DNA from: a virus
Reading direction: 5' to 3' (one strand)
DNA length: 36,450 nt
IMG/VR virus record: IMGVR_UViG_3300042868_003444
Location: 1 to 36,450 of that record
Shown: in pieces, positions 4,513 through 32,675 of the stretch
Position numbering within the stretch: the stretch's first letter is position 1
Layout of the letters: each line of letters opens with the position of its first letter
Made by a program: the position numbers and the translations under genes
Notes under the pieces: model-generated
Told to the model about the DNA's origin: nothing
The model's database searches: none
The model's input: only the letters and a program-made list of their open reading frames with translations

Positions 4513-5184
4513 TTACGTTGTAAACTTGAACTTTGTAGCCAGGACTTCAGCTACAGCTTTTGCCAACTCAACGTGTTCTAGCTGAGTACCATTTGCTGTT
4601 CGAACTTCAATGTAATGAATGAAGCTTCGAATTGTACCTTGAACATATAGTCGAGACATTGTATTACCTTCAGGAAGGATGCTACGTGCCTGTTCCTTTG
4701 CGATACCAGTTTCGATTGCCCAGCGGTAGTGTTTATTTACAAGATCAATTACTTCTTGTTGGCGAGCATTCCATTCAGTCACGATTAGTTGAGAATCTGC
4801 GTCATTTTGCATCTTCAAACTGTTCTGACGATTCTTTGCATCTTGTAGTCGTGCTTCACGCAAAACAAAACTCAAATCTTTAGTTGGGTCAGCATATCGT
4901 TGACTGAATTCTTGGAACGTAAAACTGCGGTGCCGTAGAAGTTGTCGCGCAATATCCCGAGTAGTTTCAACTTCAATAGTCATACTTGCCATTTCAAATG
5001 GGCTGAAGTGCTTATGTTTCAGCAAATAGGCGATTAGTTTAGCAGAAGTTTCTGTATTCAGTTGGTTGGATGGATTCGAAACTCTTGCGCAGAAAGCAAT
5101 CATTTCGTCTAGTTCACTGAACTTCTCTTTCATTTCATCAGAGGGTTGTGTGTAACCGATTAGTTTTACTTTTGTATATTCCAT
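4513..5184 (-). CDS. thyX: Flavin-dependent thymidylate synthase ThyX
   Basis: Makes dTMP from dUMP with methylene-tetrahydrofolate, FAD and NADPH. The signature RHRx7S is present as R84-H85-R86 to S94, followed by R96. The C-terminal part has the usual Arg-rich dUMP-binding helix (RSILPEG, Y-R-S-F-I-H region). At 223 residues it is full length. AGGAG precedes the ATG. With the dCMP deaminase at 9236-9664 it forms a route from dCMP to dTMP. An endonuclease gene sits immediately upstream, a common homing location. Confidence 0.95.
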   Translation of the reverse strand: MEYTKVKLIGYTQPSDEMKEKFSELDEMIAFCARVSNPSNQLNTETSAKLIAYLLKHKHFSPFEMASMTIEVETTRDIARQLLRHRSFTFQEFSQRYADPTKDLSFVLREARLQDAKNRQNSLKMQNDADSQLIVTEWNARQQEVIDLVNKHYRWAIETGIAKEQARSILPEGNTMSRLYVQGTIRSFIHYIEVRTANGTQLEHVELAKAVAEVLATKFKFTT

Positions 5185-5185
5185 A

Positions 5186-5668
5186 TTAAACTCCTAATAT
5201 CCATTTTGCAAAAAGAACAAGTTGATCGTGTGACGCATTGTTCTTCATGCTGTTTGCTAAGTGACTGATTACTTGTACATTTCCTTTTATGTAGCCTAAT
5301 TTTGGATCAATTCTATCTAAACTTGGCGAATTTGCAGCCGGTCCCTTACTTGAAGGTTCTAGTTTGAACCCAAATACCGGGCAATGGGTAGGTACAATTA
5401 TGTCATCGATTTCAATCGAAAACTCGACTCCTGTTCTTAAACATCTTCGTCTAACTCTTTCGAACATTGTTTCTTTTACATTTACCCTGCGTCTTTTATT
5501 TCGGTTTTCTTCGTTTACTTTAACTTTGTTTGGATTTTCTTCATACCATACACGGTAACTTTCTCTTTTACAAGTTTTACAGATACTGTATTTACCGTCT
5601 TTTGAGTGTTTACTGTTATCGAATAACTCCAAGTTTTTAGTTACTTTACATCTATTACATTCTTTCAT
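5186..5668 (-). CDS. Putative zinc-ribbon homing endonuclease
   Basis: N-terminal zinc ribbon with C4-x2-C7 and C30-x2-C33, then a very basic linker (NKRRRVN), then a nuclease-like C-terminal half in which SLDRID, GYIKGNVQVIS and ANSMKNN are characteristic of HNH/EndoVII-like phage endonucleases. It lies between thyX and a small phage gene and its end abuts the thyX ribosome-binding site by one base, as expected for a mobile intergenic gene. The ATG at 5668 is preceded by AAAAGG. Confidence 0.75.
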   Translation of the reverse strand: MKECNRCKVTKNLELFDNSKHSKDGKYSICKTCKRESYRVWYEENPNKVKVNEENRNKRRRVNVKETMFERVRRRCLRTGVEFSIEIDDIIVPTHCPVFGFKLEPSSKGPAANSPSLDRIDPKLGYIKGNVQVISHLANSMKNNASHDQLVLFAKWILGV

Positions 5669-5692
5669 CAATAGCCTTTTCTTATAATCTTG

Positions 5693-5944
5693 TCAAGCAT
5701 TCTTATCGTTTAGATAAGCTTCGTGTGAAGTATCTACATAGATTCCGGTAGCACCCTCAACCTCACGCTCATCTACATAATAGTTTACGTCATAGTATTT
5801 CAAGCGAGGATTTGTCTTGTCTTCAGCAATAGTCTCTAGTTTGGCTTTTTCAGCAGCTTCAGGAGTAGCGAACACACCAAGCACACAGTCATAATTTGAC
5901 TCATGTTTGATATACTCATTCCGAATCAACAGAAATACTTTCAT
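5693..5944 (-). CDS. Hypothetical protein, 83 aa
   Basis: A small alpha/beta protein: hydrophobic first strand (MKVFLLIRNEY), then FATPEAAEKAK, a pattern found in a widespread group of small phage proteins of unknown role. The ATG overlaps the phosphoesterase stop as TGATG, and the ribosome-binding site GTAGGAG lies in the last codons of that gene, so the two are translationally coupled. Confidence 0.75.
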   Translation of the reverse strand: MKVFLLIRNEYIKHESNYDCVLGVFATPEAAEKAKLETIAEDKTNPRLKYYDVNYYVDEREVEGATGIYVDTSHEAYLNDKNA

Positions 5945-6528
5945 CACAAATCTCCTACTCGGTTTTCACGATGTGTATCAGCAATGTAGACTTCTCGCTT
6001 ATCCATGTACTGCTTGATTTCATCAAAATTCAACAGACGATGTTCACCAAATAGATTGTACACGTTGTCGATACCAACGTCAAGAATCTTACCCTTGCCT
6101 TCTGTGTACATTCCGTGGCTATGACCATGCAGATGCCAACTACCGCGATGCTGCTGGTGCCAACTAGCAATTGGAAAGTGAAACATTACAACTTTCTGAC
6201 CATCGAACTGCTTCTCAAGGTAGTCATGAGTATATACACCGTTGACACCACGCGAATACTGCTTGAAGTTATCAGAGTAATCATGGTTACCCTTGATCAT
6301 GTGGATTGTACCATTTAGGCGTTCAATTACAGCCAATGTCTTCTTCGTATCCTTAGCAAAGGAGAAATCACCCAGGTGATAAACAGTATCACCTTTCTTG
6401 ACTTGCTTGTTCCAGATTTCAATCAGCCATTCTGTGTGGTTGTCTGCGTCAGTAAACAAGTGACGATTTGTGAAAGTCACAATATTGCGATGAAACCAGT
6501 GCAGGTCGCTAGTAAACCAGATATTCAT
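5944..6528 (-). CDS. Calcineurin-like metallophosphoesterase
   Basis: All metal-binding motifs of the family are present: D8-x-H10 (TSDLH), GDF with D54, GNHD at 80-83, H117 (HFPI) and GHSH at 135-138. The closest types are small bacterial and phage phosphoesterases of the YfcE/MJ0936 kind. I start at 6528 because GGAGGAATAAT lies just upstream and the protein begins with the first strand. Substrate unknown. Its position near an RNA ligase, P-loop kinase and nucleotidyltransferase allows an RNA-end phosphatase or 2',3'-cyclic phosphodiesterase role, which is inference. Confidence 0.88.
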   Translation of the reverse strand: MNIWFTSDLHWFHRNIVTFTNRHLFTDADNHTEWLIEIWNKQVKKGDTVYHLGDFSFAKDTKKTLAVIERLNGTIHMIKGNHDYSDNFKQYSRGVNGVYTHDYLEKQFDGQKVVMFHFPIASWHQQHRGSWHLHGHSHGMYTEGKGKILDVGIDNVYNLFGEHRLLNFDEIKQYMDKREVYIADTHRENRVGDL

Positions 6529-29462: not shown

Positions 29463-30413
29463 ATGCTAGTTCTTATTGGTTCCCGCGCTATCGAATACTG
29501 GTGCAATGACTTCCGAAAAGTCGGTCCTGACTATGATTTCATTGGTACAAAAGAAGAATTCAAGAGTTTGGTTACTCGTCTGATTCAAGACGGAAATCGC
29601 CTAGTTGAATTGAAATTCATCGAGGGAACCAATAAGGCATACGCTAAGTTCAGCAAGTTCATCATTGACATGAGTATGGTTGATGTTGACGGTCCTCTGC
29701 GAGAGTCTGATGCGGAAATCTATGAGTATGCCAAGCATCGGTTTGGTTGCATTTTTCTGAAAGAACTTGACAACTACTTCATGCTTTCTACTTTGGAACT
29801 CAACTTTGTCTTGAAGGAATCCCATAAGTTCAAGAAGAATAGTCCGCACTTCCTCAAGACGATGCAAGACCTAGAGTTTCTTCGCAGGTTTACAAATGAA
29901 AACATTATCAATGTGTATCTTCGTGAAGTACTTGACCGACGCAAGAAAGCAACGTACAATTACCAGCATCCTAAGTTGAACACCAGCAAACAGGAGTTCT
30001 TCACGGATTCTGTACCGTATCAGTACGATCATGATACAATTCATGAAGCGGTTAAGCACTTGGACAAACCTGCGTATCAGTACTACATGCAAGACGATGC
30101 CCAGGTAATGTGCAGTAGCGACAAGTTCTTCGCGCAGCCTGAGATTGTTCGGTTGTATGGTGTACTTGAAGAAAGCTATGTACTTGCCCTGGAACGTGCT
30201 GTGATTCCACACGGTACTAATCCAGAACGTGCATTTGAGATTGCACTGGAGAAAGTTTGCACCAGCATTACCAGCGGATGGTTCCGTGAGTATGCTTACG
30301 AGAACTACTTCAAGGTGAAGAATATGTACCACGCTAGCTATGTTGACAAGTTCAACCGAGCCTTGTACAATAACCAGATCAAACCATTTAAGGAGAGTTC
30401 TTATGCCAAGTAA
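29463..30413 (+). CDS. Nucleotidyltransferase-like phage protein, 316 aa
   Basis: The start MLVLIGSRAIEYW, DYDFIG and later the LELNFVLKESHKFKKNSPHFLKTM segment define a phage protein family of unknown function. The GSRA... DYDF pattern resembles a minimal nucleotidyltransferase head (GS...DxD), but the second acidic residue is replaced by Phe. A 50-residue relative of the N-terminus lies at 21826-21978. AAAGGATAAC precedes the ATG. Confidence 0.75.
   Translation: MLVLIGSRAIEYWCNDFRKVGPDYDFIGTKEEFKSLVTRLIQDGNRLVELKFIEGTNKAYAKFSKFIIDMSMVDVDGPLRESDAEIYEYAKHRFGCIFLKELDNYFMLSTLELNFVLKESHKFKKNSPHFLKTMQDLEFLRRFTNENIINVYLREVLDRRKKATYNYQHPKLNTSKQEFFTDSVPYQYDHDTIHEAVKHLDKPAYQYYMQDDAQVMCSSDKFFAQPEIVRLYGVLEESYVLALERAVIPHGTNPERAFEIALEKVCTSITSGWFREYAYENYFKVKNMYHASYVDKFNRALYNNQIKPFKESSYAK
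30343..30371 (+). promoter_or_regulatory. Candidate promoter for the macro-domain gene
   Basis: TTGACA (30343-30348), 17-base spacer, TACAAT (30366-30371), inside the 3' end of the upstream gene and about 30 bases before the macro-domain start codon. Near-perfect match but in coding sequence. Confidence 0.45.
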
Positions 30414-30998: not shown

Positions 30999-31610
30999 AT
31001 GCTAAAACAACTAGAAGGTACTCTCGTTTACGTCATGTGCGACAAACCCACTCCTTGCTATGAAAAGGATAAGGGTACAGAATGGAAAGCTGGTATCGTA
31101 CTAACTGACGAAGATACGGTTGATCTATTCGATGAGACTTATCCTAAGCAGTCTGCTAAGAAAGTCAAGTCAAGCGAATTTGAAGAAATTTACAAGTGCA
31201 AGCTGCCAGAAGGTGCAGGTAAGAACGTATGGGTCATCACCCTGAAGAAGAATACCAAGCTATCAAACGGTGAAGATGTACCTGATAAGTATCGTCCGCA
31301 CGTATTCGAAGTAACTGAAAGCGCAGGTAAGAAAGTAATGACCGACATTACCTTTACCAAGCTGGCTGGTAACGGATCAAAGGGTATTCTTACCATTGAT
31401 CACTGGGCTGGTGAAAAGGGTAACGTAGCTCGTCTGAAGAACGTAGCTGTTACTGAACTGATCGAATATGTCAAGCCTGAAGGTTCAGACTACAATCCTG
31501 GTGATGAGTTTGATTTCGGTGATGCTCCTGCTCCAAAGGCTGAAGCAAAGAAGCCAGCTGCGAAGAAAGCAGTGAAGAGTGATGCAGAAGACGATGGCGC
31601 TCCCTTCTGA
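30999..31610 (+). CDS. Probable ssDNA-binding protein
   Basis: 203 residues. The N-terminal two thirds are beta-rich with many Lys and aromatics, as in an OB-type core. The C-terminal third is a low-complexity Ala/Lys/Pro linker that ends in the acidic tip DAEDDGAPF, like the D-D-x-x-P-F tail by which SSB proteins bind partners. A strong promoter lies directly upstream. The assignment is from architecture and context. Confidence 0.75.
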   Translation: MLKQLEGTLVYVMCDKPTPCYEKDKGTEWKAGIVLTDEDTVDLFDETYPKQSAKKVKSSEFEEIYKCKLPEGAGKNVWVITLKKNTKLSNGEDVPDKYRPHVFEVTESAGKKVMTDITFTKLAGNGSKGILTIDHWAGEKGNVARLKNVAVTELIEYVKPEGSDYNPGDEFDFGDAPAPKAEAKKPAAKKAVKSDAEDDGAPF

Positions 31611-31732: not shown

Positions 31733-31809
31733 GCGTCCTTAGCTCAGAGGATCAGAGCAGTGGTCTTCTACACCATAGGTCGGGAGTTCGAATCTCTCAG
31801 GACGCACCA
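31733..31809 (+). tRNA. tRNA-Arg (anticodon UCU)
   Basis: 77 bases including an encoded CCA. Acceptor GCGTCCT pairs fully with AGGACGC. Anticodon stem GTGGT/ACCAT encloses loop CTTCTAC with anticodon TCT, reading AGA. T-arm GGGAG-TTCGAAT-CTCTC. It decodes a codon that is rare in most proteobacterial hosts. Confidence 0.93.
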
Positions 31810-31816
31810 GAACATT

Positions 31817-31902
31817 GGGCAACTGACCAAGTGACAAATTGGTACAGTCGGCAGATTCAAAATCTGTGGTTTTTCCCGGTTCGATTCCGGGGTTGCCTAC
31901 CA
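31817..31902 (+). tRNA. tRNA-Leu (anticodon CAA), unusual arms
   Basis: 86 bases with CCA. Acceptor GGGCAAC pairs with GTTGCCT, T-arm CCCGG-TTCGATT-CCGGG is canonical. The anticodon stem GCAGA/TCTGT encloses TTCAAAA, giving anticodon CAA (codon TTG). The variable region is only GGTTTTT, not the long arm expected for tRNA-Leu, while the D region between acceptor and anticodon stem is 27 bases, longer than normal. So either identity or fold is unusual. Confidence 0.7.
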
Positions 31903-31909
31903 GATCAAC

Positions 31910-32032
31910 GGGAGCGCAAGGTCATTCCTTGCATTTATGGAAAGTAATTTTGTGAGTGTGTAGAACTGCCAAATGCCTAGGAATGAAGGTGAGACTGCAC
32001 AAAACCAAATCCATATCTAGCTGCTCCCACCA
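31910..32032 (+). ncRNA. Structured 123-nt RNA with tRNA-like acceptor stem and 3' CCA
   Basis: Its ends mimic a tRNA: GGGAGCG (31910-31916) pairs with TGCTCCC (32022-32028), with a G-U at the last pair, followed by A and CCA (32030-32032). Inside are hairpin GCAAGG-TCATT-CCTTGC (31916-31932), TATGGA (31936-31941) with TCCATA (32010-32015) and TTTTGTG (31948-31954) with CACAAAA (31998-32004), in all three helices of six or seven perfect pairs. No T-arm or anticodon arm is present. The gaps to the tRNAs on either side are seven and six bases, as between the tRNAs, so it is probably processed with them. T4 encodes stable RNAs of unknown role (species 1 and 2) in its tRNA cluster. Confidence 0.72.
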
Positions 32033-32038
32033 AACAAC

Positions 32039-32112
32039 GGGGTCTTAATTCAATGGTAGAATATTCGGCTTTTACCCGATCAACATAGGTTCGATTCCTA
32101 TAGGCCCTACCA
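32039..32112 (+). tRNA. tRNA-Lys (anticodon UUU)
   Basis: 74 bases with CCA. Acceptor GGGGTCT pairs with AGGCCCT (two G-U pairs). D-arm ATTC-AATGGTA-GAAT, anticodon loop CTTTTAC with anticodon TTT, T-arm ATAGG-TTCGATT-CCTAT. The outermost anticodon-stem pair is T-T, the rest pair. tRNA-Lys(UUU) is a usual target of PrrC-type nucleases, relevant to the Rnl1-like ligase. Confidence 0.88.
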
Positions 32113-32122
32113 AATCCAGATT

Positions 32123-32599
32123 ATGAAAACAATACTTAAAATATACGGTCCATACCAACATGAAAATGGTAGATTATTTGTAGTAGCAAAATACAGTGAC
32201 GGTAGTAAAGGAAGTATTTCTTATCCTAAATACTTAATGGAATTACATTTGGGTAGAAAACTACTACCAAATGAAACAGTCGATCATATCGATAGAAACT
32301 ATCTCAATAATGAAATATCAAACCTGCAGATTTTAGATAGATCGTTACATGTAAAGTTAGACGTAAAGCGACGACAAGACGAAATCTTAACTTGTATTTG
32401 GTGTAATGCAAATTTCTTAAAGACAGGAAAAATTTTATCCACCCAAAACTCCAGAATAAAACATACAGCAGGCCCGTTCTGCAGTAAAAAATGTTCAGGA
32501 AAATACGGAGCATCAATTCTTCATGATGGCATCGAGCCACTAGCAAGAGTGCAAAACCCTAAGAACTATTATCAATTAGATAAATCCTCAGTAGTTTAA
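32123..32599 (+). CDS. HNH endonuclease inside the tRNA cluster
   Basis: 158 residues. The HNH motif reads ETVDHIDRNYLNNEISNLQIL near residues 51-71, followed by a zinc-finger-like CIWC...FCSKKC set. The start is ten bases after tRNA-Lys, without a clear ribosome-binding site. The last five codons, including the stop, lie in the first 15 bases of the next tRNA. AT-rich codons differ from nearby genes. It is a mobile gene placed between tRNAs. Confidence 0.85.
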   Translation: MKTILKIYGPYQHENGRLFVVAKYSDGSKGSISYPKYLMELHLGRKLLPNETVDHIDRNYLNNEISNLQILDRSLHVKLDVKRRQDEILTCIWCNANFLKTGKILSTQNSRIKHTAGPFCSKKCSGKYGASILHDGIEPLARVQNPKNYYQLDKSSVV

Positions 32600-32675
32600 T
32601 GGTAAAACAGCGGAATTATACCCCGTAGCGCCAGATAAGCGGCTAATATTGGTTCGAATCCAGTTTGAGGAACCA
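32585..32675 (+). tRNA. tRNA with anticodon UAU (Ile?), class II-like variable arm
   Basis: 91 bases with CCA. Acceptor TCCTCAG pairs with TTGAGGA (one G-U). D-arm GTTT-AATGGTA-AAAC and T-arm ATTGG-TTCGAAT-CCAGT fit. The anticodon stem is GCGG/CCGT with an unpaired A-C next to the loop, and anticodon TAT. The variable region of 21 bases contains TAGC pairing with GCTA, unlike class I tRNA-Ile. UAU anticodons are rare in bacteria. Its first 15 bases are also the end of the HNH gene. Confidence 0.7.

Follow-up and report, generated by a model that had tools for sequence, protein, structure and literature searches.

A CCA-ended structured segment that is not a tRNA in the tRNA cluster of a freshwater-type phage

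The DNA analyzed here (the window), a record of 36,450 bases, comes from an uncultured virus, a freshwater-type phage, and has genes for a primase/helicase, an exonuclease, a DNA polymerase exonuclease subunit, NAMPT and, at 30999-31610, an SSB-like protein. The replication genes, NAMPT and the SSB-like protein link the window loosely to freshwater Limnohabitans and Curvibacter phages (42-44% identity), and the same genes also link it loosely to IMG/VR loci (76 loci). The window phage and its relatives share a DUF7275/DUF7277 protein near the tRNA cluster (29463-30410 in the window, 5647-6471 in locus L012), which the annotation of one phage calls a putative nucleotidyltransferase. Directly after the SSB-like gene lies a tRNA cluster, in which a segment here called element X separates tRNA-Leu(CAA) from tRNA-Lys(UUU):

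31733..31809, + strand: tRNA-Arg(UCU), the first gene of the cluster (ARAGORN; Rfam tRNA, 68 bits)
31818..31902, + strand: tRNA-Leu(CAA) with encoded CCA (read from the sequence; Rfam tRNA, 25.3 bits, sub-threshold, over 31833-31891)
31910..32032, + strand: element X, a 123-base CCA-ended structured segment, not a tRNA
32039..32112, + strand: tRNA-Lys(UUU), starting 6 bases after X (ARAGORN; Rfam, 64.6 bits)
32123..32599, + strand: HNH endonuclease gene within the tRNA cluster (PHROG 14913, E 8.7e-21; Pfam HNH_3)
32585..32675, + strand: tRNA-Ile(UAU) with a long variable arm (ARAGORN; Rfam, 51.7 bits)

ARAGORN missed tRNA-Leu(CAA), although all of its arms are present and its acceptor, T-arm and CCA are detected by a scanner. 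The long variable arm of tRNA-Ile(UAU) also occurs at L067 5755-5857 and at L042 about 4778-4880, with the loop (U)AGAUAA, and its stem differs between these two loci by compensatory changes.

The ends of X are those of a tRNA. As the initial annotation had proposed, a tRNA-type acceptor stem, discriminator A and CCA are all present, and X thus shares with the tRNA family (RF00005) a 7-bp acceptor stem, a discriminator base and a CCA end. (One base, G31916, had been counted twice in the earlier description, since it belongs to the acceptor and the first hairpin alike.) The elements of X are as follows:

31910-31916/32022-32028, + strand: acceptor-like closing stem of 7 bp, GGGAGCG/UGCUCCC (6 Watson-Crick pairs, the last pair G·U)
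31916-31921/31927-31932, + strand: hairpin 1, GCAAGG-UCAUU-CCUUGC, 6 pairs (pair probability 0.98-1.0)
31936-31941/32010-32015, + strand: helix 2, TATGGA/TCCATA, 6 pairs, enclosing helix 3
31948-31954/31998-32004, + strand: helix 3, TTTTGTG/CACAAAA, 7 pairs
31949-31952/32006-32009 and 31957-31963/31995-32001, + strand: alternative to helix 3, TTTG/CAAA and TGTGTAG/CTGCACA
31922-31929/31979-31986 and 31931-31936/31971-31976, + strand: competing 14-pair helix, spanning 31922..31986
32029 and 32030-32032, + strand: discriminator A and encoded CCA

Only 7 bases (31903-31909) separate X from tRNA-Leu(CAA), and 6 (32033-32038) separate it from tRNA-Lys(UUU). These lengths had been given correctly, but they are similar rather than equal to those between normal tRNAs here, as the only ordinary spacer in the window, between tRNA-Arg and tRNA-Leu, has 8 bases. 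With such short spacers, and with a terminator search of the tRNA cluster negative for the + strand, it is plausible that X would be cut out together with the tRNAs.

Inside X, the three helices of 6, 6 and 7 pairs are found where they had been described, but the fold is not unique. The minimum free energy is -36.6 kcal/mol with the alternative helix 3 versus -35.4 kcal/mol with the described one, so that two nearly equal choices exist. The 14-pair helix, absent from the first description, pairs TCATTCCT.GCATTT (31922-31936) with AAATGC..AGGAATGA (31971-31986) and competes with hairpin 1 and helix 2; at -32.3 kcal/mol it is about 4 kcal/mol worse in the full-length RNA, but it comes out best when the first 80 bases fold by themselves, as they would during transcription. 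The sequence may therefore switch between folds or form a pseudoknot, and the outer 5 pairs of the 14-pair helix, alone, could form one with the hairpin 1 loop UCAUU. The acceptor is contiguous with hairpin 1 on the 5' strand, and the two would stack coaxially into 12 bp, as in the minihelix of a tRNA acceptor and T-arm, except that the arm lies on the 5' side. In tRNAs, the 12-pair acceptor/T-arm stack is the length read by RNase P and other enzymes acting on tRNA ends.

Could X be an ordinary spacer with coincidental complementarity? When the spacer was shuffled with its dinucleotides preserved, a 7-pair acceptor and CCA at the right ends arose in 0.09% of cases (P 0.0009); shuffles of X gave as many helices of at least 6 Watson-Crick pairs in 0.2% and the two-part 14-pair helix in 0.1%. 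These statistics were chosen after the sequence had been seen, and the P values are after the fact because X had been selected by eye. Position provides the strongest argument: a stem and CCA lying at both ends of the spacer are unlikely by chance. A 135-base non-coding gap between tRNAs is, moreover, unusual in a compact array. On the other side, the folding energy (z = -2.27 to -2.6) is unexceptional for the window, being matched by 4-6% of 887 same-size segments (5.5% reach -2.3), and is by itself weak support; nor has a homologue been found. Taken together, chance makes a very unlikely explanation of X.

If X is not an ordinary spacer, it is not an ordinary tRNA either. Neither ARAGORN nor cmscan finds a tRNA match in X, even at E 10, and no T-arm, D-arm or anticodon arm is present (a T-arm scanner was negative); that T-arm and anticodon arm are missing had been noted at first reading. 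No intron-bearing tRNA can be recovered; this reading was rejected because T-arm and D-arm are absent at either end. There is no suitable ORF. The earlier view that X belongs to no known family also held up, with no match in Rfam 15 at the gathering threshold or at E 10.

Searches for homologues were empty. In blastn against 50,697 phage records at E 10, X had no match. The exact pattern of its 5' end occurred once in IMG/VR, a coincidental hit in a contig (L010) that is rich in GC and has no tRNAs, and its inner 17-mer did not occur there. The acceptor pair with a gap of 88-118 bases was present in 51 IMG/VR contigs, but never with a tRNA less than 500 bases away. A single-sequence covariance model, run on 75 sources (74 other loci; 712 kb of related and comparison loci), recovered X itself and nothing else, and a scan of the relatives' loci for acceptor-closed, CCA-ended segments near tRNAs yielded no second X. 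The SSB-like neighbor, aligned against the genome contigs, had no match; the exonuclease is 95% identical in L008, a contig that stops before the tRNA cluster. The best pairwise score to X was that of a class-B tRNA-like RNA (L056), reached in 2.7% of shuffles and not significant over 13 comparisons. Antisense complementarity of X to the window's own mRNAs is at most 9 bases (+ strand) or 13 bases (- strand transcripts), within the range of shuffles.

The tRNA clusters of related phages contain structured RNAs of their own. In one type, found at L029 2719-2820, L052 3099-3199, L066 2760-2861 and L084 2798-2899 (also L027 about 2691-2792), a canonical acceptor, D-arm, T-arm and CCA are combined with a long hairpin that takes the place of the anticodon arm and has no 7-base anticodon loop. 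Across four distinct sequences, 96/96 pair cells are paired and 6/24 pairs carry compensatory changes on both sides, compared to 2.7 in shuffles and 0-1 when the alignment is slid. (In L027 and L029, ARAGORN reports this RNA as tRNA-Arg(acg).) Like X, these RNAs lie in the tRNA cluster and have an acceptor stem, an encoded CCA and no anticodon loop; unlike X, they keep canonical D- and T-arms in 101-102 nt, and they have no significant sequence similarity to it. X was rejected as a member, since it lacks a T-arm and the profile of these RNAs (A4) has no match in it. A second type, at L064 1739-1844, L055 2641-2757, L037 2938-3053 and L075 2772-2884, also keeps D- and T-arms, with a GUUA tetraloop instead of the anticodon loop and an extra hairpin; several copies lack CCA.

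A further unannotated RNA, here called RNA Y, is 145-200 nt long and has covarying helices. It lies in the tRNA cluster of relatives, at L011 2254-2436 (the isolated Limnohabitans phage DC31), L029 2951-3165 and L032 2798-2981, and in loci L035, L045, L048, L049, L055, L056, L058, L060, L063, L064, L066, L068, L075 and L084. Its motifs run UCCCUAGA ... GGAUUGUCGUCC ... GUUUAGGGAC, and the loop GUUUAGGGAC (also given as UUUAGGGA) of a covarying 3' hairpin has its complement in an invariant UCCCUA(GA), a pairing that is probably a pseudoknot. The L029 copy has no Rfam match. The Y motifs are absent from X, and the Y profile (A5) has no match in the window's cluster; RNA Y was also rejected as a CCA-ended relative because its CCA is just the 3' strand of the covarying terminal hairpin. 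What the tallied RNAs do show is that phages of the window's group repeatedly retain non-decoding structured RNAs in their tRNA clusters.

The same relatives lend some weight to a different history, in which X is what remains of a tRNA or tRNA-like gene after insertions, deletions or recombination had replaced or scrambled its interior, and yields a functionless product. The acceptor stem and CCA would have persisted because they still permit correct processing between tRNA-Leu and tRNA-Lys. The tRNA-likes of relatives do form a gradient, in which the anticodon arm or the D-arm is altered or the CCA has been lost, and the cluster of X harbors an HNH endonuclease gene; tRNA clusters with endonuclease genes recombine often. 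However, decay should cost the acceptor pairing too, and X is longer than every tRNA here, has an excess of long helices, and keeps no T-arm, D-arm or trace of tRNA sequence. A decayed gene is thus rather unlikely.

Other segments in relatives are closed by much longer stems: L012 4822-5630 (Curvibacter phage P26059A), L006 5750-6240, L062 5812-5918, L077 5831-5942 and L032 2979-3098. They are about 100-180 nt long, with perfect closing stems of 9-20 pairs and a variable interior; some begin inside the CCA of tRNA-Arg, and an extended -10-like TGGTATAAT then follows. One P26059A segment, L012 5023-5121, was published as 'tRNA-Pyl' (PMC5964084). It looks instead like a tRNA-like RNA that lacks CCA and is closed by a long stem; pyrrolysine use is doubtful. 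Where such segments, with perfect stems of up to 18 pairs, lie directly 3' of tRNA-Arg (for example, in L062 and L077), they fit processing signals, and X might likewise be a spacer acting only in cis, its closing stem a signal for RNase P, RNase III or RNase E that parts tRNA-Leu from tRNA-Lys and the freed RNA a by-product. Yet tandem phage tRNAs a few bases apart mature without such elements, and X differs from the long-stem units in having a short stem that ends in A-CCA. A role limited to processing in cis consequently seems improbable.

The closest known parallel is found in phage T4, whose tRNA cluster encodes species 1 (rnaC, RNA C, 139 nt) and species 2 (rnaD, RNA D, 119-120 nt) beside tRNA-Arg and segB. 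GOLLD and ROOL, the large ornate phage-associated RNAs of which some lie near tRNA genes, are also structured and phage-encoded, but at several hundred nucleotides they are far longer, and X has no Rfam match (on these RNAs cf. PMC12286853). RNAs C and D of T4 are stable and late-expressed, as checked by Northern blot (PMC9697503), and their roles are unassigned (PMC3014915). The comparison with T4 made at the outset is apt: species 2 is 120 nt long, is separated from tRNA-Arg and species 1 by a few bases, and in T4 itself ends in ACCA, as X does. Like X, it has a length of about 120 nt, a 5'-proximal hairpin and a place in a tRNA cluster that has a tRNA-Arg(UCU) beside it and a homing endonuclease gene (segB), and its spacers of 1 and 6 bases resemble the few-base spacers of X. 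However, it has no acceptor-type closing stem, and X lacks the conserved core of species 2 (ACCGGGUCGCUACCGGUAAGUCGUCGGACUGA...ACGGCGCAC). In nine aligned homologues of species 2 this core is strongly conserved and the CCA is not, and a profile built from the nine (A2) gives no match in the window's tRNA cluster. Species 1 is likewise a stable non-tRNA RNA within a tRNA cluster, but it keeps a T-arm-like hairpin, CCGGGUUCGAAUCCCGG, and has no CCA end, whereas X has no T-arm-like hairpin near its 3' end and no sequence similarity to it. X is therefore a member of neither. Since it has no known relative, it is probably another small RNA of the T4 tRNA-cluster kind.

What, then, is X? The end-flush acceptor and CCA, the excess of long helices, the short spacers, the lack of an Rfam, ARAGORN or coding explanation, the tRNA-like precedents near the same genes and the T4 RNAs all argue for a genuine RNA; the empty homologue searches, an energy within the top ~5% of segments and a fold that is not unique argue against it. 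On balance, we lean, with modest confidence, toward X being a real, rapidly diverging small non-coding RNA that tRNA-processing enzymes release from the tRNA transcript and that exposes a tRNA-like minihelix end. The tRNA-type features lie in the sequence between neighboring tRNAs, X contains no tRNA, and its arrangement is improbable as chance; its transcription, excision, stability and function in trans we infer. X would be transcribed with tRNA-Arg, tRNA-Leu and tRNA-Lys. RNase P (or a substitute) would cut its 5' end at 31910, and 3' exonucleases would halt at the encoded CCA, resulting in a stable 123-nt RNA, with recognition presumably via the 7-bp acceptor stem and A-CCA stacked on hairpin 1. 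The working part would be the interior, varying between phages, and X might act in trans, either as a mimic of a tRNA end that engages tRNA-end-binding proteins or as an sRNA shielded by its tRNA-like ends. A decoy for RNase P or CCA enzymes, or a regulator, as first suggested, would each be conceivable, and nothing in the analysis favored decoy over regulator or the reverse. For anticodon nucleases, a role as substrate decoy is unlikely, as X has no anticodon loop.

A more specific, and distinctly speculative, possibility is that X belongs to a class of phage RNAs that mimic the tRNA end only, through a 12-bp acceptor-type stack with A-CCA and the arm on the 5' side. Such an RNA, made during infection, would tie up host proteins whose targets are tRNA 3' ends (toxins that modify CCA, or trimming nucleases) and thereby protect the real tRNAs; the tRNA-likes without an anticodon loop in relatives would then be parallel solutions. 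We consider this proposal improbable as it stands.

The roles of the small stable RNAs of phage tRNA clusters have been a puzzle since their discovery in T4. The anticodon-loop-less tRNA-likes of the relatives show compensatory changes in their stems, so that a whole family is available for studying them, and the associated RNA Y is present in an isolate of this group, Limnohabitans phage DC31. Should X be real, it would mean that a phage can keep the end signal of a tRNA alone and swap the whole interior, which would offer a simple test of what that end does.
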